This document shows positions 32,617 to 43,581 of a stretch of 64,000 nucleotides of DNA, piece after piece. The first letter of the stretch is position 1. Each line of letters starts with the position of its first letter. Position numbers and translations under genes: made by a program. The DNA lies in assembly GCF_030034735.1 (NCBI RefSeq), contig NZ_CP125370.1:1612001-1676000 (forward strand). The letters are read 5' to 3'. The stretch comes from Paenibacillus sp. RC334. Its GTDB lineage: Bacteria; Bacillota; Bacilli; Paenibacillales; Paenibacillaceae. The notes below the pieces were generated by a model, which saw only the letters and a list, made by a program, of their open reading frames with translations, had not been told where the DNA came from and did not search any database.

Positions 32617-33981
32617 TTAATCTGCGGGAACGGCGGGGAGGATGATCGTTGCTGTCGTTCCGCTTCCCTGAATACTTTCTAGCCCAATGTGAGCATGAAG
32701 GGCCTCTGCAATTCCTGTAGCCAGCGATAAGCCTAGTCCGGCTCCACCTTCTTCGCGGCTTCTGGCTTCATCCACACGATAGAAGCGGTCAAATACTTTA
32801 GATAGCTTGTCCTGCGGAATTCCAATCCCTTGGTCTGTGATTCTGATACAAGGTTGAGCCATCTCACCCGTGGTTCCAATAGTTAGGCGTATCGACTCGT
32901 CACTGTATTTACGTGCATTATCCAAAAAGATAAACAGTAGCTGTTTCAGCTTATTTTCATCGCTGTAGCCCATACAGTCCGCCTGCACGTCCAGTTGCAC
33001 TTCCCGGGCAAAAGCATTTTCAAATGTGACCTTCAACTCTGTCACGATTTTGCTCAGGCGAACCGGCTCCAACACGATATTCCATTGCTCCTCGTTTCTC
33101 GCCAAAAGAAGAAGCTGCTCTGCCATTTCCTTCATTCGTATCGCTTCGGAATGGATGGCTTCAACGGACTCGGCGAAAATCTTGGGATGCTGCAGTCCCC
33201 GGCGTTTGAGCAGGCTAGCATAGCTTTCAATAATGGTGAGGGGTGTTTTCAGTTCATGGGATGCATTGGAAACAAACTGTTCTTGCCGGACAAAGTTGCG
33301 CTCCAGCAATTCAATCATGTCGTTAAACGTTTCTCCCATTTCTACCAGTTCGTCGCGTGATGAGGAGTTGAGCGGAAGGCGCTTAAATTTCCCGCTACGT
33401 TGAATCTCTCTCATCGTGCTGATCATAGATGTGATTGGACGTGTAATGAATCTGCCGAGCAATCTTCCCGAGATCACGACAGGAATGAGTGCAATCCCTG
33501 TGACAGCTATAAGTACGATTCTGAGTACCTGTAGCGTCTGCATCGTTGGTTGCAGACTTTCGGTTATCTGAAGATTGACGACCTCTCCATCGCTCCAGAT
33601 CATGGGAACCGATACAAGAATGTAACGGTTGTTTTCATGGGTAATCACGCGTACTTGTCGTGTCTCATCATAAACAGCCTTCATCAAACTGAGAGATTGC
33701 TCCGAAGAAGAGGTGATCGGGGAAAGAAAATCGCCCTCCGGTTTCATTAGCCGAAGCATACCGTCTGGTGGCACATAGGCTCGAAGAAGATCCCCTGCGA
33801 CTACCGATGCGGGGGCGCGCTGAATGCCGCGAATCATGTTGTCCGCTGCGGCTTCTACCTGATCTTTGCGGCTGTCTATCGAAAGGTGGCTGAACAGGAA
33901 ATAGACCGAAAAGTTAATGGCCACAAGTAAAATCGCGAGTAATAACGAGGTGTACATATGGATCTTGTTTTGCAGCTTCAT
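32617..33981 (-). CDS. Membrane sensor histidine kinase of the PepSY operon
   Basis: A 454-residue kinase with two membrane segments (about 10-32 and 150-175), an extracellular sensor between them, HAMP, the phosphorylation helix (FVSNASHELKTPLTIIESY) and an ATPase domain (FLDNARKYSD, ITDQGIGIPQDKL, FDRFYRVDEARSREEGGAGLGLSL). Its start overlaps the regulator's stop by four bases (ATGA). Confidence 0.92.
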   Translation of the reverse strand: MKLQNKIHMYTSLLLAILLVAINFSVYFLFSHLSIDSRKDQVEAAADNMIRGIQRAPASVVAGDLLRAYVPPDGMLRLMKPEGDFLSPITSSSEQSLSLMKAVYDETRQVRVITHENNRYILVSVPMIWSDGEVVNLQITESLQPTMQTLQVLRIVLIAVTGIALIPVVISGRLLGRFITRPITSMISTMREIQRSGKFKRLPLNSSSRDELVEMGETFNDMIELLERNFVRQEQFVSNASHELKTPLTIIESYASLLKRRGLQHPKIFAESVEAIHSEAIRMKEMAEQLLLLARNEEQWNIVLEPVRLSKIVTELKVTFENAFAREVQLDVQADCMGYSDENKLKQLLFIFLDNARKYSDESIRLTIGTTGEMAQPCIRITDQGIGIPQDKLSKVFDRFYRVDEARSREEGGAGLGLSLATGIAEALHAHIGLESIQGSGTTATIILPAVPAD

Positions 33982-34679
33982 AACGATTCCTTCAGCACAT
34001 AGCCAATTCCGCGTACGGTATGAATCAGCTCAGGGAGCTGGCGCGTGGGGTCAATTTTATTGCGCACGTATCGGATATACACGTCCACTACGTTGGTATC
34101 GCCGTAATAATCAATACCCCATACATTCTCCAGTAATTGTTCTCGGCTAAGCACCTGCCGCTGATGTCTCAGCAAATGAACGAGCAAGTCAAACTCTCGT
34201 GGCGTAAGCTCAATGCTGTGCTCACCGCGAAGAACTTCACGGGTACCTTCATGGAGGCGTAAATCCCCGGCATGAAGCCATGCATCTTCCACTTCGGGAA
34301 CGGCTTCTTTCGTTGCACCTACCCTAAGCGCGGCGCGGACACGTGCAAGCAGCTCTTCGATCACAAAGGGCTTGGTAATATAATCGTTAGCTCCCAGATC
34401 GAGCCCCTCGACCTTATCTGCAATAGAACTTTTGGCCGTCAGTAAAATGACAGGAATGCTCGCATCATCTTTACGAATCCGCCGCAGTAGTTCGATGCCA
34501 CTGAGGCCGGGAATCATAATATCCAGCAGGACCAGATCCCAATGACCTTTGCAATATGTCTCCAGTCCGTCAATTCCGTTTTTTTCTTTGCATACTTGAT
34601 ATCCTTCAAACTCAAGCTCGATCTCCAGAAGCCGGGCAATTTTCTCTTCGTCTTCCACGATCAGAATGGATTGGTTCAT
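33978..34679 (-). CDS. OmpR-family response regulator of the PepSY operon
   Basis: A 233-residue protein with a receiver (EDEEKIARLLEIELEFEGY, phospho-acceptor in LVLLDIMIPGLSG, Lys in NDYITKPF) and a winged helix (ELTPREFDLLVHLLRHQRQVLSREQLLENVWG, YIRYVRNKID, HTVRGIGYVL). First gene of a four-gene operon (regulator, kinase, two PepSY proteins). AGGAGGGC precedes the ATG. Confidence 0.92.
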   Translation of the reverse strand: MNQSILIVEDEEKIARLLEIELEFEGYQVCKEKNGIDGLETYCKGHWDLVLLDIMIPGLSGIELLRRIRKDDASIPVILLTAKSSIADKVEGLDLGANDYITKPFVIEELLARVRAALRVGATKEAVPEVEDAWLHAGDLRLHEGTREVLRGEHSIELTPREFDLLVHLLRHQRQVLSREQLLENVWGIDYYGDTNVVDVYIRYVRNKIDPTRQLPELIHTVRGIGYVLKESL

Positions 34680-34786: not shown

Positions 34787-34820
<34 letters not shown>

Positions 34821-35055
34821 TTATTTTTATACCAAGGATTGAGCGAATTTTCTTGTGTTATATTTCTTTACATTGAAAAGGGATAAAATGTCATGATAGC
34901 GCTATATATATCGTCTTTTATCCTGTATGCACAATAAATAAGCCTTTGTTTTGGTCAGGACGAACATTGTTTATGGAAGGAAAGTTGCAGTAACATAAGT
35001 TAAACCTATTCAATAGAGGACGAAATACATCATGTCTAAGCCACAGGAGGGTCAT

Positions 35056-36624
35056 ATGGAAAACGAAAAAGAAAAACGCCACCCGAAAACGTTTGAGCCT
35101 TTTGCATTTATTCTCATTGTGGCTACAAGTGTTCTGGGAGCTATTATCGGAATGCAGATCGTAACCAGTCTGGGGGTGACCCCAAATACGGCCATCATCG
35201 GAGCGTTAATCGCGATGCTGATTGCACGTATCCCGTTTAACTGGTTTTTACGTTATAAATCGGTACATCGTCAAAATCTGGTCCAGACGGCGATTTCCTC
35301 GGCTACCTTCGGGGCGGCCAATAGCCTGCTGATTCCGATTGGAATTCCATATCTCATGGGAACCCCTGATTTGGTCGTACCCATGCTGCTGGGGGCGGCG
35401 TTGGCTATGTTCGCAGATGCAACGATACTGTACAAAATTTTTGATTCCAGACTGTTCCCCGCCTCGGGTACATGGGCTCCGGGTGTTGCGACAGCGGAAT
35501 CCATCAGAGCCGGGGACAAGGGCGGCAAGCGTGCCGGATTGCTGGGTGTCGGCGCACTGATCGGGGTAGTCGGCTCTTATCTCAGCATTCCGATGTCTGC
35601 CTTTGGTGTGGCTTTTATCGGTAATATTTGGGCCTTGGGCATGTTTGGTGTCGGCTTATTGATTCGCCAGTATTCCATGCCGCTATTTCAGATTGATGTA
35701 AATGCGCTATACATTGCGCATGGAGTGATGATCGGGGCGGGCATTGTGGCGCTGATTCAGGCTGCTGTACTCGTATTCGGCCGTTCCGGCAAGAAAAAGG
35801 ATAGTACCGCCGCGCTTTCGGATAAAGCTTCAAATGAAGCATCCGGCACGAGTAGCATTGTCGTGGATGGGGCTCCCGTGCAAGCCTCTTCGCAGGATGA
35901 AGAATACACCCGTCCGATTGCAGAGGCTCGTCGTACGCTTGGACTCGGGTTCATCGCGTATCTGGCGATTTCCCTGCTGATCGCCATCATCGGTGGACTG
36001 GTAACGCACATGTCCGTAGGCATGCTGATCGGCTTTATCGTGTTTGCAGCCTTTGCCGCGTTCGTGCATGAAATTATCGTCGGCATTGCCGCCATGCATT
36101 CCGGGTGGTTCCCCGCCTTTGCGGATATGGGCTTTGATTTGAAAACAGGCTATATCCTGCGTGGCAACGGTAAGGATAAGGAGCTGGAACGGGAAGGTCG
36201 AAAGCAACAGTATATAACGGCTCTGATCGCCTTCGCTGTTGCACTGGTGACTGTAGCTCTGGCTTATCCGAGTTATTTTGCGCAAAATCTGGTGCCACCG
36301 ATTGATAAAGTATATGTATCCACCATTCAGGCCGGAGCTACACCGGGTGTGGCAAGCCAGCTCTTGCTGTGGGCGATACCGGGAGCGATTCTCCAACTCA
36401 TAGGTGGCTCCAAGCGCCAACTGGGTGTTATGTTCGCGACAGGGCTACTGATTGCGACAGCGAATGCGTGTTGGGCTGTTCTGGCCGGCATCGCAATTCG
36501 CTTCCTCGTAACCCGTTTCGCAAAAAAAGAGGTCGTTTCTTCCATGACGATTCTGGCCGCAGGTTTTATCGCAGGGGATGCGCTGTACAACTTCTTTAAT
36601 TCCGTATTTAAACTAAAAAAGTGA
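35056..36624 (+). CDS. OPT-family oligopeptide transporter
   Basis: A 522-residue integral membrane protein with about 13-14 segments, of the OPT superfamily, which takes up oligopeptides or metal chelates with protons. Family marks are the TSLGVTPNTAIIGALIAMLIAR-like start (LGVTPNTAIIGALIAMLI), SATFGAANSLLIPIGIPYL and TPGVASQLLLWAIPGA. A long polar loop (KKKDSTAALSDKASNEASG) splits the two halves. ATG at 35056 is favoured by AGGAGGG five bases upstream; an in-frame ATG at 35032 is possible. It opens a six-gene run probably devoted to uptake and breakdown of one compound. Confidence 0.85.
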   Translation: MENEKEKRHPKTFEPFAFILIVATSVLGAIIGMQIVTSLGVTPNTAIIGALIAMLIARIPFNWFLRYKSVHRQNLVQTAISSATFGAANSLLIPIGIPYLMGTPDLVVPMLLGAALAMFADATILYKIFDSRLFPASGTWAPGVATAESIRAGDKGGKRAGLLGVGALIGVVGSYLSIPMSAFGVAFIGNIWALGMFGVGLLIRQYSMPLFQIDVNALYIAHGVMIGAGIVALIQAAVLVFGRSGKKKDSTAALSDKASNEASGTSSIVVDGAPVQASSQDEEYTRPIAEARRTLGLGFIAYLAISLLIAIIGGLVTHMSVGMLIGFIVFAAFAAFVHEIIVGIAAMHSGWFPAFADMGFDLKTGYILRGNGKDKELEREGRKQQYITALIAFAVALVTVALAYPSYFAQNLVPPIDKVYVSTIQAGATPGVASQLLLWAIPGAILQLIGGSKRQLGVMFATGLLIATANACWAVLAGIAIRFLVTRFAKKEVVSSMTILAAGFIAGDALYNFFNSVFKLKK

Positions 36625-36625
36625 G

Positions 36626-37702
36626 ATGATGCAGATGGACGCTTTGAAGCTGGATGAGAGAATTGTTGAATATGCCGTTTATGGCGGTGCTGTTCTGGGC
36701 GGAGGAGGCGGAGGCTGGATTGAAGAAGGTCTGCGGATCGGAAAGCTGGCTCTTGAAGTGGGACAGCCGAAGCTGGTATCCGTCGAAAGCTTCGCAGATG
36801 ACGATCTCTTCGTCACCGTGGCTGTCGTTGGTGCCCCGGCTGCTCCGAATAAATATGTGAAGCCTGTTCATTATGTGAAGGCGCTGGAAATGGTGTCCTC
36901 CATGACAGGAAAGGGTGTCCGGGCTTTGCATACGAATGAAAATGGCGGCGAGACAACGATTAACGGCTGGTTTCAGTCGGCTTTGAGTGGTATTCCGGTT
37001 GTGGATTTTGCATGTAATGGCCGGGCACATCCGACAGGCACAATGGGCTCCATGAACCTGACCGAGCTTCCAGATTACGTAAGCCATCAGGCTGCGGTGG
37101 GCGGACGTGGAGAGCATTATATGGAAGTGGGTATTTCAGGCTCCCTGGACCATGCTGCATCGCTGGTTCGTAAAGCCTCGGTAGAGGCTGGAGGACTTGT
37201 AGCGGTTGCACGGAATCCGGTGACGGCCGCTTATGCGAGAGCCAACGGTGCACCGGGAGCCATTTCCCGGGCAATTGCTGTTGGAGAAGCGATGCTGGCC
37301 CATCAAGGCGAAGCTGCGATTGCAGCCGTGGCAGCTGAGCTGGGCGGTAAGGTTATCGCCGCAGGAGAAGTAACAGAATGCCGACTTGAAACATCGGGGG
37401 GCTTTGATGCCGGGTTGGTTCGCATTACCGATAGTGGTCGGGCCTACGAAATGACCTTCTGGAATGAGTACATGTCCCTGGAGCTTGATGGGGAGCGGCT
37501 GGCGACATTTCCAGATCTGATCATGACACTGGATATGGATACAGGCAGACCTGTAATCACAGCCGCCGTAGCCCAAGGACAGCGTCTGGCTGTCATCGTG
37601 GTACCGAAGGAAAAGCTGCTGCTGAGTACGACCATGTTTAACACCAAGCTGCTGCAACCGATTGAGCAAATTATCCATAAGCCTATACTGTCCTATCTAT
37701 AA
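36626..37702 (+). CDS. DUF917 (S-methyl thiohydantoin desulfurase-like) family protein
   Basis: A 358-residue soluble protein. The N-terminus (VYGGAVLGGGGGGWIEEGL) is the glycine-rich start of the DUF917 family, followed by FVTVAVVGAPAAPNKYV, GETTINGWFQSALSGIPVVDFACNGRAHPTG and a C-terminal ITDSGRAYEMTFWNEYMSL. As I recall, Pfam now names this family after S-methyl thiohydantoin desulfurase, and it often sits beside hydantoinase/oxoprolinase genes. It starts one base after the OPT stop, so coupling is likely; the ribosome site is weak. A second or third ATG (36629, 36635) could also be used. Confidence 0.82.
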   Translation: MMQMDALKLDERIVEYAVYGGAVLGGGGGGWIEEGLRIGKLALEVGQPKLVSVESFADDDLFVTVAVVGAPAAPNKYVKPVHYVKALEMVSSMTGKGVRALHTNENGGETTINGWFQSALSGIPVVDFACNGRAHPTGTMGSMNLTELPDYVSHQAAVGGRGEHYMEVGISGSLDHAASLVRKASVEAGGLVAVARNPVTAAYARANGAPGAISRAIAVGEAMLAHQGEAAIAAVAAELGGKVIAAGEVTECRLETSGGFDAGLVRITDSGRAYEMTFWNEYMSLELDGERLATFPDLIMTLDMDTGRPVITAAVAQGQRLAVIVVPKEKLLLSTTMFNTKLLQPIEQIIHKPILSYL

Positions 37703-37726
37703 AATGATTTCGGGAGGAATGCAACG

Positions 37727-38674
37727 ATGGCACTTCAACAGACATTAACCGTATTCGAAGCGCTGGACAGCGCCTATGTGAACGGAGAGCGGGTTAAGCA
37801 GCTTTTCGCCGGATACGAGGACATTGTGGTAACGGTAAAACAGGTAAAAGGAGCCAAGGGCAGCACGGATTTTATACAAGTGCTTATTCCGGGTACGGAA
37901 GGCAAAAGCTCTGGAGGTACGGCACCGACATTTGGCATTGTAGGACGTCTAGGCGGGATCGGCGCACGTCCTTCCCGAATTGGTCTTGTATCTGATGCGG
38001 ATGGAGCTATTGCAGCGGTTGCCGCTGGGCTGAAGCTGGCGGATATGCAAATTAAAGGTGACAAGCTGAAGGGTGATGTGATCGTAACTACGCATATTTG
38101 CCCGGATGCACCTACCCGTCCGCACGAGCCGGTTGATTTTATGGACTCCCCTGTGGATATTTTGGAAATGAATCGTCATGAGATTGTTCCCGAGATGGAA
38201 GCTATTCTGTCCATTGATACCACCAAGGGCAATCGTGTTATTAATCATAAGGGGATCGCCATTTCACCCACGGTGAAGGAAGGCTATATTTTGCGAGTCA
38301 GTGAGGATCTGCTGCGCCTGATGGAGCAGACTACGGGACAATTGCCCGTTACTTTTCCGGTAACCACGCAGGATATCACGCCGTACGGTAATGACTTATA
38401 CCATATTAATTCCATTTTACAGCCTGCTGTAGCGACGGATGCGCCTGTGGTTGGTGTTGCTATTACAGCGCAGGCTGCCGTACCAGGATGTGGGACCGGG
38501 GCCAGTCATGAGATTGATATCGCGGCAGCCGTACGTTTTTCCATTGAAACGGCCAAGGAATTTACGAATGGCACTTGTGCATTTTATAACCCGCAGGAAT
38601 TTGTCAAAATTACCGAATTGTACGGCTCCATGAAGATATTTCAGACAGCAGGCAGTGCGCAAAACCACGGCTGA
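37727..38674 (+). CDS. DUF1177 family protein, possibly metallopeptidase-like
   Basis: A 315-residue soluble protein of the DUF1177 family. Segments such as TFGIVGRLGGIGARPSRIGLVSDADG, quoted here in part as GIVGRLGGIGARPSRIGLVS, then VIVTTHICPDAPT, AILSIDTTKGNRVI and ISPTVKEGYIL, are conserved-looking. The His and Asp spacing recalls M42/M20-type peptidases, but I cannot prove the metal site. GGGAGGAATGC precedes the ATG. It lies 24 bases behind the DUF917 gene in the same run. Confidence 0.75.
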   Translation: MALQQTLTVFEALDSAYVNGERVKQLFAGYEDIVVTVKQVKGAKGSTDFIQVLIPGTEGKSSGGTAPTFGIVGRLGGIGARPSRIGLVSDADGAIAAVAAGLKLADMQIKGDKLKGDVIVTTHICPDAPTRPHEPVDFMDSPVDILEMNRHEIVPEMEAILSIDTTKGNRVINHKGIAISPTVKEGYILRVSEDLLRLMEQTTGQLPVTFPVTTQDITPYGNDLYHINSILQPAVATDAPVVGVAITAQAAVPGCGTGASHEIDIAAAVRFSIETAKEFTNGTCAFYNPQEFVKITELYGSMKIFQTAGSAQNHG

Positions 38675-38755
38675 TGCTAAACAGGGCAGGCCACAGGCTT
38701 GCCCTTTGCCGTCAGGAGCGTAAAATAAAATGGATGCGAAAGCAGGGGATTGAAG

Positions 38756-39427
38756 ATGGATAAGCTTGGGATGATTACGATTGGGCAAGCGCCCCGGACA
38801 GATGTGGCTCCTATCGTGGAACGGGCTTTGGAAGGACGTGCAGAACTGGTACAGGCAGGTGCGCTGGACGGTCTTTCTTTTGCTTATATACAAGAGCATT
38901 TGTCTCCGTCGCCGGGAGAGTATGTATTGACCTCCCGCCTGACGACTGGCGAGTCGGTGGTTATATCACGCGAAAAAATCCAGCCGCTGCTTCAGGAGAA
39001 AATCACGCGCATGGAAGAACAAGGCATCCGTACGATTTTATTGCTATGTACCGGCGTATTTCCGGGATTGCATACCCGAACCGCCTTTTTGATTGAGCCG
39101 GACCATGTGCTTCCTCCTGTGATTAAGGCGATGTCCGGCGGACGGCGGGTCGGTCTGATTGGTCCGCTGGAAGAGCAGAAGGACAATCTCAAGCTCAAAT
39201 TCAGTCCTCACGGAATGAATCCCGGGTTTGCAGCGGCCTCGCCTTACAGCAGCAGTGAAGAGGAATTTCGCCAGGCTGCCGGGCAGTTCAAGGATCAGGC
39301 TGATCTTATCGTGCTGGATTGTATGGGGTATACGGATGTTCACAGAGAACTGGCGGCGCGTTACGCGGGGGTTCCCGTCGTATTGTCCAATGCCCTGATC
39401 GGCAAGCTGGTATCGGAAATGGTGTAA
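38756..39427 (+). CDS. aroM: AroM family protein
   Basis: A 223-residue protein of the AroM family, which belongs to the Asp/Glu racemase clan. Marks are MITIGQAPRTDV at the start, LLLCTGVFPGLHTR with a candidate catalytic Cys, GRRVGLIGPLEEQ, and LIVLDCMGYTDVHRE with the second Cys. In E. coli aroM sits next to aroL but has no known reaction. Here it is in a catabolic-looking run. ATG at 38756 is preferred over the TTG two codons earlier. Confidence 0.85.
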   Translation: MDKLGMITIGQAPRTDVAPIVERALEGRAELVQAGALDGLSFAYIQEHLSPSPGEYVLTSRLTTGESVVISREKIQPLLQEKITRMEEQGIRTILLLCTGVFPGLHTRTAFLIEPDHVLPPVIKAMSGGRRVGLIGPLEEQKDNLKLKFSPHGMNPGFAAASPYSSSEEEFRQAAGQFKDQADLIVLDCMGYTDVHRELAARYAGVPVVLSNALIGKLVSEMV

Positions 39428-39461
39428 GCGTATAAGCTAACTGAAAATAGGAGGTAAAAAA

Positions 39462-40412
39462 ATGAGCCAACAACGTGTTGAAATTAGTAAAAATGTATTG
39501 CAAAAATGTTTGGGACTTACCGCTGGAGAGACGCTTCTAGTGGTAACGGACGATGATAAAAAGGAATTGGGCGAGTCCATTTATGAAGCTGGCAAGGCGC
39601 TGGGCGCAGAAGCTGCTATTTTGACGATGAAGGTACGCTCCAAATCAGGGGAAGAGCCTCCGGCACCTGTGGCCGAAGCCATGCTTCGCTCCAATGTTGT
39701 CGTATGTGTCACCCGGTATTCGCTGACCCATACCCATGCCCGCAAGCAAGCAGCAGCCGCTGGAGCGCGTCTAGCGACGATGCCTGGTATGACGGACGAC
39801 ATGTTCATGAACGGGGCGATTGCTGCTGATTATCCGAAGGTCAAGGCGCTGACCGAAGAGGTGACCGCATTATTGACAGCTGCCAAGCAGGTGCGGATCG
39901 AGAAGGATGGGTACAGCCTGTGCTTTACCATTGAGGGTCGCAACGGCGTGCCCAGCACGGGCATGTATCTGAACCCTGGCGAATCCGGCAACCTTCCTTC
40001 CGGTGAAGCGTATATTGCTCCGCTGGAGGGGACGGCGCAAGGCCAGATTGTGGTGGACGGTTCTGTTGCAGGAATCGGTGCCTTGAAGGAGCCGCTGTTG
40101 CTGACGGTCGAAAACGGCAGGTTGACAGCCGCAGAAGGGGAAGCAGGGCAGTCCCTGCTGGAAATGCTGGGTGAAGGTGACGGCAGAATGCTGGCAGAGT
40201 TCGGTATCGGTACGAATGATAAAGCACGTATTACAGGTGTCGTACTGGAAGATGAGAAGGTGTACGGCACGATTCATGTGGCTTTTGGCAGCAATAATAC
40301 TTTTGGTGGGACCATCGCTGCGGGTGTACATATTGACGGTGTCGTTCAGCGACCGGATGTGTATCTGGATGACCGCCTGATTATGAAAGCTGGGCAACTG
40401 CTGGAGCGCTAG
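39462..40412 (+). CDS. M29-type aminopeptidase / NicX-like metalloenzyme
   Basis: A 316-residue protein labelled in related genomes as leucyl aminopeptidase. Conserved parts are ESGNLPSGEAYIAPLEGTA, AEFGIGTNDKARITG, GTIHVAFGSNNTFGG and GVHIDGVVQRPDVYLDD. The His and HxD ligands of the last two match both M29 aminopeptidases and 2,5-dihydroxypyridine 5,6-dioxygenase (NicX), which share this fold. The protein is shorter than classical M29 enzymes (about 410 residues), so peptide or ring cleavage are both possible. AGGAGG precedes the start; 34 bases behind aroM. Confidence 0.8.
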   Translation: MSQQRVEISKNVLQKCLGLTAGETLLVVTDDDKKELGESIYEAGKALGAEAAILTMKVRSKSGEEPPAPVAEAMLRSNVVVCVTRYSLTHTHARKQAAAAGARLATMPGMTDDMFMNGAIAADYPKVKALTEEVTALLTAAKQVRIEKDGYSLCFTIEGRNGVPSTGMYLNPGESGNLPSGEAYIAPLEGTAQGQIVVDGSVAGIGALKEPLLLTVENGRLTAAEGEAGQSLLEMLGEGDGRMLAEFGIGTNDKARITGVVLEDEKVYGTIHVAFGSNNTFGGTIAAGVHIDGVVQRPDVYLDDRLIMKAGQLLER

Positions 40413-40458
40413 GTGGGTGAGAAACAGCAGGAGCTGTAAAAACAGGGAGGAATTCATC

Positions 40459-41118
40459 ATGCTCGGAATTATCAGAGTGCTTACCATGCAAGACGAAGTC
40501 GCTATTGGCCTTCACGGCCGAGTTATCGAGCAGCGCTACGGACTGCCTGTCACCAGTGTGTGTATCCCTGACCAGCCGCAGGGAATCTACGACGATGCAA
40601 CGGATCGGGAATCAGTGCCTAAAATTGTGGTCGCAGCACAACAGCTCGTCGAGCAGGGCTGCACGTCTATTGGCATTAGCTGCGCGGCTGATCCGGCGTT
40701 GGAGGAAACCCGCCATGCGGTGAATGTACCTGTATACGGCGCAGGCTCCTGTGCGGCGCATCTGGCATTGACAGCGGCCAGTCGTGTCGGTGTGTTGACC
40801 ATTTTGGAGGAGGCACCCCCGCTGATCCGCCGTATCCTGGGTGAGTCTTACATCGGCACAGAGCGCCCTGAGGGTGTACGTACGACGCTGGACCTGAACA
40901 CTCAGCAAGGCAAGGAAGCGGCCATGGCAGCGGCGCTGCGGCTTCAGGAGAAGGGAGCAGAGGCTATCGTGCTGGCCTGTACGGGTTTTGTGACGATGAA
41001 CTTCGCACCGGAGCTGGAGCGCAGGCTGGGCATCCGTGCCATTGATCCGATTGTGGCGCTCGGCGCAGCCGCATCGGTGCACTGGCAGCGGGAGAATGAT
41101 GAAGTCCAGGCAGGATAA
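40459..41118 (+). CDS. Asp/Glu/hydantoin racemase family protein
   Basis: A 219-residue enzyme of the aspartate/glutamate/hydantoin racemase superfamily (which also includes maleate isomerase). The two catalytic Cys positions are in SIGISCAADPALEETR and IVLACTGFVTM. VGVLTILEEAPPLIRRILG separates them. GGGAGGAATTC precedes the ATG at 40459; the longer frame from 40417 has no such site. Last gene of the OPT run before a terminator. Substrate is unknown. Confidence 0.87.
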   Translation: MLGIIRVLTMQDEVAIGLHGRVIEQRYGLPVTSVCIPDQPQGIYDDATDRESVPKIVVAAQQLVEQGCTSIGISCAADPALEETRHAVNVPVYGAGSCAAHLALTAASRVGVLTILEEAPPLIRRILGESYIGTERPEGVRTTLDLNTQQGKEAAMAAALRLQEKGAEAIVLACTGFVTMNFAPELERRLGIRAIDPIVALGAAASVHWQRENDEVQAG

Positions 41119-41149
41119 TCCTGACTTATAAAATAATAGGGTATTGAAT

Positions 41150-41182
41150 TAAACCGCCTTTTCCTGAAAGGGCGGTTTATTT
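41150..41182 (+). terminator. Intrinsic terminator of the OPT-racemase run
   Basis: TAAACCGCC and GGCGGTTTA flank a loop with further A/T pairing; a short T-rich tail (TTTATTTG) follows. Confidence 0.8.
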
Positions 41183-41320
41183 GCGTTCCATCCGGTAAAA
41201 GGTTTTGTTTTGTATACTTTTTTGGTACACTATCCTGAAAATTAAGTTAGGCGAGAACTTTGCAAAATCCTCAATATATGTGCCGTTACCGCAAAATAAA
41301 TAGCAAGGTGGTCTGTCCAT

Positions 41321-42856
41321 ATGAAAATACCGGGTGTAACCGTTCAGGAGCTTATGACAATGCCCGTATTGAAGGAGGCGAAGGTACTAAGCGGAGAGCA
41401 GGGATTAAATCGGTTTGTCCGTTTTATTGATATTATGGAGGTCCCTGACTTGAAGGGCTGGATCAGGGAAGGCGTACTATTGATGACAACCGCTTATTCC
41501 ATCCGTCATGAGCCTGAGGTATTGTGTCAAATTATTCAATTATTGCACCAGGGCGGGGCCGCAGCACTTGCGATCAAGCCGACCCGCTTTCTCAAGGAAA
41601 TTCCCCGCAGTGCGCTGGAGGAAAGCAATGCGTGCGGCCTGCCCGTGATTGAGATTCCGGCCGATATTCCATATACGGATATTACACAGCGAGTCATGGA
41701 TATGGTGTTGAATCGGCAGGCAGAGCTGCTGCGACGCTCGGAAGAAATATATCGGACCTTAACAACGATGGTGCTGGAGAACAGCGGTATACAGGCTGTA
41801 AGCGATAATATAGCAGAGCTGCTTAAAGCCCCGGTTGCTTTGATTGATAATGGAGGCCGAGCCATCGTCACTTCACCACAGGAATGGAATTGGATGGAGG
41901 CGCAGGATTCCCGTCATTTTCCAATTAATGTCGATAAACGCACGGTTGCCAAGCTGGTCATTGCCCGCAATGAGCTGGATGATATGGAGCAGGTGGGCAT
42001 TGAGCAGGCACGTCTGGTCATGGCACTGGAATTAATGCGTGAAAAGGCAGTAGAAGATACAGAAAGCCGACTACGGGGTAACTTTATCGACGAGTTGATG
42101 ACCCCTCCGGTACCTTTGCGACATGAGGTTGAGCGGAGAGGGCGTCAACTGGGATTTAACCCGGCATATGATTGGGAGGTTGCTGTACTGGAAAGTGCTA
42201 CCGCTCCGCCAGAAGAGATTCTGTCCGGATTGCTGAGTCAGGAATCCATCCGGCGGCGTGTGGTATCCCATATTGAGTTCCGTTCCAATCGGGCGATACT
42301 ATTTTTACCTACTCTTCATCCGAATGACCACCATGACGGGGCTGGCGCTGATCAGGGACTAACCTGGGCTGAAACGCTAAAGAGCTGGAACAGTGAAAAA
42401 GCATTGGGAACGGGCGATTATTATATAGGCATTGGAAGTACCAAAAAGCTGTGGGAGCTGATGCAAAGCTATAATGAGGCACGACGTGCCATCACTGTCT
42501 CCCAGCGGCTGTACCCCGATAGACGTGTATGTAAATTCAGAGATATCGAAATGCACTATATGCTTGGGGAAGCAATGAACAAAGAGGAATTTGGCGATTT
42601 GTTTGAACGTAAGCTGGGCAAACTCCAGCAGTATGATCGGTCTCATGGCAGCGATTTGCTTAAAACGTTATTTTATTATTTGGAAAATCGGGGCAGTCTG
42701 ATGGATACAGCGAATTATCTTTTTATACATCGTAATTCGGTCAAATACAGACTGGAACGGATTCGTGACATTGCGGATTTTGATCTCAACGATCCACGCG
42801 AGCAGTTCATATGCCATACCTGTCTGATCCATTATTATTTGCGGGAACATAAGTAG
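41321..42856 (+). CDS. PucR-family transcription regulator
   Basis: A 511-residue regulator. Residues 1-125 are a PucR ligand-binding domain (VTVQELMTMPVLKEAKVLSG, REGVLLMTTAYSIRH); a central domain follows; the C-terminus (near 445-505) is the PucR helix-turn-helix (LLKTLFYYLENRGSLMDTANYLFIHRNSVKYRLERI, shown in part as TANYLFIHRNSVKYRLERI). PucR-type proteins activate catabolic genes for purines, hydantoins, proline or aromatic compounds when inducer binds. It is separated from the OPT run by a terminator and has a weak promoter-like TTTTGT/TACACT pair near 41205-41233, so it is likely its local regulator. Confidence 0.88.
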   Translation: MKIPGVTVQELMTMPVLKEAKVLSGEQGLNRFVRFIDIMEVPDLKGWIREGVLLMTTAYSIRHEPEVLCQIIQLLHQGGAAALAIKPTRFLKEIPRSALEESNACGLPVIEIPADIPYTDITQRVMDMVLNRQAELLRRSEEIYRTLTTMVLENSGIQAVSDNIAELLKAPVALIDNGGRAIVTSPQEWNWMEAQDSRHFPINVDKRTVAKLVIARNELDDMEQVGIEQARLVMALELMREKAVEDTESRLRGNFIDELMTPPVPLRHEVERRGRQLGFNPAYDWEVAVLESATAPPEEILSGLLSQESIRRRVVSHIEFRSNRAILFLPTLHPNDHHDGAGADQGLTWAETLKSWNSEKALGTGDYYIGIGSTKKLWELMQSYNEARRAITVSQRLYPDRRVCKFRDIEMHYMLGEAMNKEEFGDLFERKLGKLQQYDRSHGSDLLKTLFYYLENRGSLMDTANYLFIHRNSVKYRLERIRDIADFDLNDPREQFICHTCLIHYYLREHK

Positions 42857-42894: not shown

Positions 42895-43581
42895 ATGGAT
42901 AAAAAAATATTAGTAGCGGACGATGAACCCAGCATTCGCAATGCGCTAGCCTATGCGTTGAAAAGAGAAGGTTTTTTGGTAGAAACCGCTGTTGACGGGG
43001 AGGACGCATTGGAAAAAGTCCGTTTGTTTCACCCCGATGTGCTGGTGCTCGATGTGATGATGCCCAAACTGGGCGGATATGAGGTGTGCCGCCGTTTGGA
43101 AAGTCGGAAGGGCATCGGTATTCTGCTGCTGACTGCCAAAAACGATATCGTGGATAAGGTGCTCGGGCTGGAGCTGGGCGCGGACGATTTTATGAGCAAG
43201 CCCTTTGATCTGCGAGAGCTGCTCGCCCGCATCAAGGCGCTGGTACGGAGGCTGGAGCGGGAAGGAGCGCCCGCGCCGGAAGGATCAGAAACGATACTTG
43301 GCCCGTTACGAGTGCGTCCGTCCAGCAGGACGGCTGAACTGGAGGAAACAGTGCTGGAGCTGACACCCAAGGAGTTTGATGTGCTGGCGCTTCTGGTGTC
43401 ACACGCTGGGCGGGTATACACGCGGGACGAGCTGCTGGAGCAGATATGGGGCTTCGATTATGCAGGTGGAACACGGACGGTGGATATTCACATCCAGCGC
43501 TTGCGCAAGAAGCTTGAGCCGCATCAGTCGCTATTGCAGACGGTGTATGGAATAGGCTATAAGGCAGAAAAGATACTGTGA
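42895..43581 (+). CDS. OmpR-family response regulator, orphan
   Basis: A 228-residue regulator with a receiver (VADDEPSIRNALAYAL, phospho-acceptor in VLVLDVMMPKLGG, Lys in DDFMSKPF) and a winged helix (ELTPKEFDVLALLVSHAGRVYTRDELLEQIWG, QRLRKKLEP, TVYGIGYKA). No kinase gene follows: a minus-strand Rieske gene begins its end 34 bases later. It lies 38 bases behind the PucR-type regulator, possibly in one transcript. GGGAGGAAA precedes the ATG. Confidence 0.9.
   Translation: MDKKILVADDEPSIRNALAYALKREGFLVETAVDGEDALEKVRLFHPDVLVLDVMMPKLGGYEVCRRLESRKGIGILLLTAKNDIVDKVLGLELGADDFMSKPFDLRELLARIKALVRRLEREGAPAPEGSETILGPLRVRPSSRTAELEETVLELTPKEFDVLALLVSHAGRVYTRDELLEQIWGFDYAGGTRTVDIHIQRLRKKLEPHQSLLQTVYGIGYKAEKIL

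Follow-up and report, generated by a model that had tools for sequence, protein, structure and literature searches.

What does a run of six genes, encoding an OPT-family transporter, a DUF917 protein, a DUF1177 protein, AroM, an M29-like metallopeptidase and an Asp/Glu/hydantoin racemase-family protein (RAC) and followed by a PucR-type regulator, do for the bacterium that carries it? The run lies in a 64,000-nucleotide stretch (hereafter the window) of the 5.98-Mb genome of Paenibacillus sp. RC334 (contig NZ_CP125370.1, positions 1,612,001 to 1,676,000). In the literature searched, no assigned reaction was found for DUF1177 (full-text search) or for AroM (papers on AroM, yaiA and aroL, judged by title and the start of the abstract). 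A preliminary description of this DNA had placed six co-directional genes before the regulator, with gaps of 1, 24, 81, 34 and 46 bases and a terminator at their end; re-reading the window confirmed all seven genes and every gap, and a hairpin was found after the racemase gene. Here we report that an importer, DUF1177 and AroM form the constant part of this cluster, with the remaining amide hydrolases varying around them, and we tentatively propose that the set imports and degrades cyclic dipeptide-like amides, namely 2,5-diketopiperazines or, as a near alternative, hydantoin-type rings.

We fetched named loci by DUF1177 alone and read the best 80 of 153 confirmed, counting as partners the genes on the same strand within 8 kb of DUF1177. 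Many of the 80 come from Paenibacillus, so they are not independent; Bacillus relatives, Enterobacterales, Burkholderia, Chromobacterium and one acidobacterial bin are also represented. The nearest, in P. brasilensis, encodes a DUF1177 protein 92% identical to that of the window, and P. terrae proteins are 98% identical to the window's. AroM lay near DUF1177 in 79 of the 80 loci (within 1.5 kb in 77, at about 3.5 kb in two Burkholderia) and was missing from the Chromobacterium locus (L066). An importer was found in every locus, either of two peptide-type transporters that stand in for each other: OPT in 58 and DppB in 24. The enzyme partners were M29 (54/80), the racemase (47/80), DUF917 (35/80), PepE (10/80) and M20 (9/80), and the regulators were PucR (46/80; upstream of DUF1177 in 31 loci, downstream in 15) and IclR (30/80); EamA occurred in 16 loci, and the cyclodipeptide-oxidase-like CDOA and CDOB in 12 and 11, respectively. 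The gene order recurs in other genomes, and the conserved neighbourhood supports the earlier suggestion of a single catabolic-looking unit with its own importer. On a plasmid of the haloarchaeon Salinigranum rubrum, one run holds Dpp genes, DUF917, DUF1177, AroM, an M29-like aminopeptidase, a racemase and an aspartoacylase-family gene; among 14 control genomes, Haloferax carried both AroM and DUF1177, and E. coli AroM only.

Three main forms of the operon were distinguished. In the first, racemase and PucR accompany OPT-DUF917-DUF1177-AroM-M29; in the second, DUF1177-AroM-M29 is joined to Dpp ABC genes, plus racemase and PucR or M20; the third is an enterobacterial IclR-OPT-DUF1177-AroM cassette, which in 12 loci has no scored hydrolase and in others continues with PepE and often a racemase. 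The amide hydrolases exchanged beside the constant core are M29, M20, PepE (S51) and the aspartoacylase-family gene. Because the 12 small loci hold OPT, DUF1177 and AroM with no scored hydrolase, the operon variants suggest that the core hydrolase is DUF1177 and not DUF917. One complete IclR-OPT-DUF1177-AroM-PepE-racemase cassette, flanked by transposase genes, was seen on a Klebsiella pneumoniae plasmid typed as conjugative (L085 6559-11966), and the trait may therefore be mobile. A further protein family (274-286 residues) was observed in six Bacillota loci: it separates DUF1177 from AroM in L109, L112, L117, L119 and L121 and stands behind DUF1177 in L123; its members are 43-73% identical, and the three scanned had no Pfam match.

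A sample of 299 Bacillota genomes contained DUF1177 in 33, and 30 of the loci so found were read as a further set, one of them (L137) the same record as L011. These held AroM in 20, the racemase in 17, DUF917 in 15, PucR in 14, M29 in 13, OPT in 11 and DppB in 7; neither OPT nor DppB was found in 12, some of whose contigs end early. Within the genus Paenibacillus, DUF1177 occurred in 23 of 75 genomes, a patchy spread that fits an accessory trait. Fragmented DUF1177 genes were seen in two enterobacterial genomes (G498, G473; L197-L201) and three Paenibacillus genomes (G683, G697, G646), which could mean that the trait is decaying or that contigs end there. DUF1177 can also stand apart from its usual companions, with RNase HII and GTPase genes nearby (L126), between two OppD/F-like ATPase genes (L134-L136) and in L130.

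The enterobacterial cassette bears on the origin of E. coli aroM, a gene sequenced in 1986 (reference list of PMC11055893). In Ewingella, Hafnia, Serratia and two Pantoea the order is aroL-yaiA-IclR-OPT-DUF1177-AroM-ppnP-rdgC-mak, and four Rahnella share the order from aroL to mak, with yaiA not detected. E. coli K-12 has aroL-yaiA-aroM-ppnP-rdgC-mak (aroM at L083 4429-5106): its AroM is homologous to (43.6% identical to Ewingella AroM) and syntenic with that of the cassette, but no gene lies between yaiA and aroM where Ewingella, Hafnia and Serratia have IclR-OPT-DUF1177, and serine replaces the first of the two AroM cysteines. A survey of the whole order Enterobacterales was too wide, yielding four AroM and two DUF1177 genes (one under the cut-off) in 148 genomes, and was replaced by a survey of the family: among 198 Enterobacteriaceae genomes, AroM occurred in 79 and DUF1177 in 21, with an adjoining AroM in 15 of the 21. 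The AroM region was read in 77 of these 79 genomes (G498 and G473, with broken DUF1177, were left out), and 96 distinct AroM proteins were compared after open reading frames of fewer than 150 residues and copies sharing their last 150 residues had been dropped. Both cysteines were present in all 32 cassette proteins (one from Burkholderia, one labelled Martelella, the rest Enterobacterales) and in both copies that kept IclR with OPT and DUF1177 gone. Among the 62 orphan proteins (the comparison drew on loci L202-L261 and on K-12), C98 was lost in 58 (46 with C189 only, 12 with neither), C189 alone was lost in one, and three had both.

In an AroM tree of 106 rows, rooted at the midpoint and with all non-Enterobacterales rows fetched through DUF1177, the 62 orphans fell on one side of a single branch (100/97), nested in an 81-row group (100/100) that also includes 17 copies belonging to aroL-locus cassettes. 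This nesting fits loss in the E. coli line better than later insertion elsewhere. On the tree, the partners were lost once and C98 mostly in a single event, to which other losses add; as the orphans form one lineage, the 58 cases among 62 do not count as independent. No fragments of OPT or DUF1177 were found at the 61 loci tested. In the sequences sampled outside the E. coli lineage AroM travels with OPT-DUF1177, and E. coli aroM is probably, to judge by synteny and phylogeny, a remnant of the small OPT-DUF1177-AroM version.

We then consider the proteins. The earlier view of AroM and the racemase as kin, by racemase fold or family and by a conserved pair of cysteines in each, held. RAC exceeded the PF01177 cut-off and has C75 and C174 in 67 of 67 sequences; its best solved relative, 2eq5 (E 3.7e-59), was deposited as a hypothetical hydantoin racemase, and hydantoin/allantoin racemases and OpaE come next. 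AroM exceeded the curated cut-offs of PF07302 and NF007788 and fell below that of PF01177 (23.9 versus 31 bits), so that we claim the fold alone: its predicted structure matched 2eq5 first, tied with Asp/Glu racemases, a fold that, like the two cysteines, is that of the Asp/Glu/hydantoin racemase superfamily. DUF917 surpassed both PF06032 and PF20906, with E105, D127, N131, R133 and H135 invariant across 48 sequences (our conservation counts exclude proteins outside set length limits or scoring below 100 bits). Its kinship with thiohydantoin desulfurase, proposed earlier, stands as a relationship, whereas membership of that family does not: it scored 288.1 against a cut-off of 440 bits for NF058529 and 261.3 against 450 bits for NF058532 (S-methyl thiohydantoin desulfurase). 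DUF1177, aligned without L019 (a stop codon in the reference), L062 and L066, is predicted to have the overall fold of M28/M20-type hydrolases (M20/M28/M42-type, di-zinc).

The M29-like protein has 316 residues and matches PF02073 above the cut-off over residues 175-278 only. The five metal ligands E182, E246, H272, H290 and D292 are kept in 64, 65, 65, 67 and 67 of 67 sequences, respectively, in common with the E, E, H, H, D set of the M29 aminopeptidases AmpS, AmpT and LmAmpII; the tyrosine of their EEHYHD motif (PMC7023490) is replaced by N279, seven residues after the histidine, and by N, H, D, T, Q or S in relatives. As the catalytic tyrosine is not kept, we file the protein as M29-like only.

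What the cluster acts on is suggested by four hints, which by analogy point to cyclic dipeptide-like amides. A CDOA- and CDOB-like pair is present in 11 of the 80 named loci, about 2 kb behind M29 in these, and in 1 of the 30 further Bacillota loci. The one pair tested (L052) resembled the two parts of a cyclodipeptide oxidase, AlbA (8uc3_A, 8e-26) and AlbB (8uc3_D, 1e-6). Cells of Paenibacillus chibensis DSM 329 cleave cyclo(Asp-Phe) and cyclo(Asp-Asp) by an enzyme that the study reporting this did not identify (PMC3852281); no later enzyme for diketopiperazine breakdown in Paenibacillus was found among the literature matches listed. P. chibensis NBRC 15958 (L025) carries PucR-RAC-OPT-DUF917-DUF1177-AroM-M29, with no Hydantoinase_B match. 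PepE hydrolyses Asp-X dipeptides (PMC11078827), an activity that matches the product expected of cyclo(Asp-X) opening, and OpaE converts a residue of a nonribosomal peptide derivative from D to L (PMC12661438).

On this proposal, OPT, or a Dpp/Opp ABC transporter in relatives, would bring the compound in; the racemase and AroM would invert Cα centres beside the ring carbonyls by two-cysteine acid-base chemistry, with one stereoisomer reaching the hydrolases; DUF917 and/or DUF1177 would open the ring amide; M29-like, M20 or PepE peptidases would cut the linear dipeptide; and PucR or IclR would regulate the genes. A bolder version, which we regard as rather speculative and on the whole unlikely, is a cross-domain pathway dedicated to cyclo(Asp-X) and related diketopiperazines, in which DUF1177 would be a new class of ring-opening amidase (the fold of a di-zinc peptidase, its metal site rebuilt), AroM an epimerase of cyclic dipeptides and E. 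coli aroM what is left of the pathway after decay.

Alternatively, the cluster might scavenge linear non-standard dipeptides or N-acyl amino acids (D-, β-aspartyl or acylated), the racemases turning D into L residues and the metallopeptidases cutting the amide. The Dpp/Opp and OPT importers, the M29-type, M20 and PepE peptidases, the aspartoacylase-family gene of the haloarchaeal set and the peptidase-like predicted fold of DUF1177 all suit such a role, yet it leaves DUF917 and the oxidase-like pair (12 loci) unexplained, and the best racemase match is named a hydantoin racemase, not an amino-acid racemase; we consider it rather doubtful. A little more doubtful to us is catabolism of hydantoins or thiohydantoins (cyclic ureides), in which DUF917 would open or desulfurise the ring, RAC and AroM would racemise C5, and metallo-amidases would remove N-carbamoyl or acyl groups. 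It draws on the similarity of DUF917 to thiohydantoin desulfurase, on RAC's nearest relatives being named hydantoin or allantoin racemases, on a PucR family named for purine catabolism, on a Planococcus plasmid with DUF1177 near DUF917 and hydantoinase/oxoprolinase genes (no AroM was seen there), and on the hydantoin-type chemistry proposed for similar clusters in PMC11055893. Set against these are the desulfurase scores far below the equivalog cut-offs (288/440 and 261/450), the 45 of 80 loci with no DUF917, the peptide-type importers in all 80, and searches of the two main sets (110 loci, single-sequence profiles only) that gave no HyuA, HyuB or ASPA match.

That the genes make or tailor a secondary metabolite derived from a peptide, and are not catabolic, strikes us as improbable: EamA (16/80) and the oxidase-like pairs (11/80) would suit it, OpaE acts in biosynthesis (PMC12661438) and the option is named in PMC11055893, but every locus has an importer, several hydrolases are present, and no synthase was noticed among the neighbours, though no search for one was made. 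Least probable, in our judgement, is the breakdown of an N-heterocycle by a NicX-type ring-cleaving dioxygenase, which the earlier account had entertained on the grounds that the M29-like protein has metal ligands common to aminopeptidases and NicX. The sequence does match NicX (7cn3, E 2e-6), weakly yet better than aminopeptidase T (2ayi, 0.3), and shares its His-x-Asp. The iron ligands of NicX are H265, S302, H318 and D320 (PMC7910607); the aligned residues here are E246, A274, H290 and D292, and the three aminopeptidase ligands with no NicX counterpart in the alignment are present (PMC7910607, PMC7023490). The aminopeptidase part of that statement therefore stands and the NicX iron site falls; we rejected the dioxygenase on its ligands, and the N-heterocycle option is not supported.

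Several observations weigh against the preferred reading, a transporter-DUF1177-AroM unit for cyclic dipeptide-like amides. Substrate and reaction are, for every gene, predictions from sequence and context. No histidine conserved in at least 95% of 113 DUF1177 sequences precedes H123, so that the usual first metal motif, His-x-Asp in M20/M28/M42-type hydrolases, is missing. Profile comparisons of DUF1177 with M42 (two sequences) and M20 (one sequence) found nothing, on which we rejected homology at the sequence level and limit the claim to the fold; given the missing motif and the empty comparisons, DUF1177 is not filed as a member of these families. Membership of the racemase family also fits linear and free amino acids. 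Of the 80 loci, 45 lack DUF917 and 26 lack M29. Among the 30 further Bacillota loci, 10 have no AroM and 7 none of the nine scored partners, although some of these seven adjoin OppD/F ATPase genes. Besides the 15 with adjoining genes, the 21 Enterobacteriaceae carrying DUF1177 include three that lack AroM, one whose AroM sits on a different contig and two in which the copies are broken; Sulfolobus, one of the 14 control genomes, has DUF1177 and no AroM. A tblastn search found no cyclodipeptide-oxidase pair (CDOA plus CDOB) in the window; a DUF6092 search of the whole window genome gave no match, with the control likewise silent. That genome has one Hydantoinase_B gene, elsewhere. The link to P. 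chibensis concerns one species, in which NBRC 15958 and DSM 329 are not established as the same strain; of the 11 diketopiperazines tested on DSM 329 only 2 were cleaved, and growth with diketopiperazines left the rate of this strain unraised, which does not fit simple induction (PMC3852281). The role of related clusters was left open in PMC11055893, where hydantoin/purine metabolism or secondary-metabolite biosynthesis was suggested.

The features of the window locus are listed in Table 1. The OPT start is preceded by AGGAGG, with an alternative in-frame ATG upstream at 35032, and the regulator has both a PucR N-terminal domain and HTH_30. The terminator scan overall did no better than shuffles (9 sites versus 10.2), so the hairpin is backed only by its own stem length and place; a promoter scan of the window was likewise at chance (13 versus 11.9). 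By bit-score comparison of OPT-type and Dpp-type operons, the part of the operon at 39462-42856 looks mosaic: the racemase (median 289 versus 187 bits) and PucR (690 versus 439) are far closer to Dpp-type operons, whereas OPT and DUF917 are confined to OPT-type operons and AroM weakly sides with these (305 versus 278). A TA-repeat run lies at 34790-34822, in the intergenic region upstream of the OPT gene, and both flanks of the cluster (32617-34679 and 42895-43581) hold genes that by eye resemble a histidine kinase and response regulators. AroM is single-copy in this genome; a second DUF1177 gene (L089; G000:C1:3923000-3942000) stands in a Dpp ABC operon with an M20 peptidase and without AroM.

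Table 1. Genes and signals of the Paenibacillus sp. RC334 cluster, in window coordinates.
Feature	Position	Strand	Evidence
OPT-family transporter (likely importer)	35056..36624	+	PF03169 84.1 bits, cut-off 25.8
DUF917 / S-Me-THD-like (predicted cyclic-amide hydrolase)	36626..37702	+	PF20906 110.5 bits, PF06032 74.5 bits, cut-offs 27
DUF1177, hallmark of the unit (predicted amidohydrolase)	37727..38674	+	PF06675 459 bits, cut-off 25
AroM (predicted two-cysteine racemase/epimerase)	38756..39427	+	PF07302 238.1 bits, cut-off 23.8; NF007788 239.1 bits, cut-off 198
M29-like metallopeptidase (predicted amide or dipeptide hydrolase)	39462..40412	+	PF02073 39.0 bits, cut-off 27
Asp/Glu/hydantoin racemase-family protein (RAC)	40459..41118	+	PF01177 88.3 bits, cut-off 31
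Intrinsic-terminator-like hairpin	41150..41179	+	13-pair stem, -16.9 kcal/mol
PucR-family regulator (likely local)	41321..42856	+	PF07905 110.4 bits, PF13556 60.1 bits

Two known pathways invite comparison. The ergothioneine-type thiohydantoin desulfurase pathway (NF058529/NF058532) also has a DUF917-superfamily enzyme, but the window protein scores far below both equivalogs, and no ergothionase or urocanase-type family is among the seven genes of the window; no enzyme-specific paper on thiohydantoin or ergothioneine was found among the literature matches listed. The hydantoinase process includes a racemase step. Its cyclic amidase and carbamoylase are partly described in PMC3852281. The logic of racemising, opening the ring and hydrolysing is common to that process and the window cluster, which differs in its enzyme families and peptide-type importers. 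The nearest precedent is the set of cyclodipeptide-oxidase clusters without a synthase, around which DUF917, AroM, the PF01177 racemase, OPT or Dpp/Opp, EamA and peptidases, all common to the clusters studied here, are enriched (PMC11055893, 2024). That work starts from the oxidase; the oxidase-like pair stands near 12 of 116 loci related to the window cluster. In the text of that work consulted here, the terms DUF1177 and 'peptidase M29', the enterobacterial cassette and an E. coli aroM remnant were not found. The cluster, read as a catabolic operon for a peptide-like nutrient, has thus been partly noticed before from the oxidase side, and what is chiefly new is the DUF1177-AroM core, the fold predicted for DUF1177, the finding that the M29-like protein has ligands of the aminopeptidase type, and the probable origin of E. 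coli aroM.

For E. coli, if aroM is, as seems probable, left over from an uptake-and-degradation cassette, with one of the two catalytic cysteines gone, the search for its role in the aromatic pathway may be misplaced. For Paenibacillus, whose cells have been reported to break down diketopiperazines (PMC3852281), the cluster supplies candidate genes for that activity. More broadly, DUF1177 and AroM recur with DUF917 in bacteria and archaea, and these orphan families become parts of one testable pathway.

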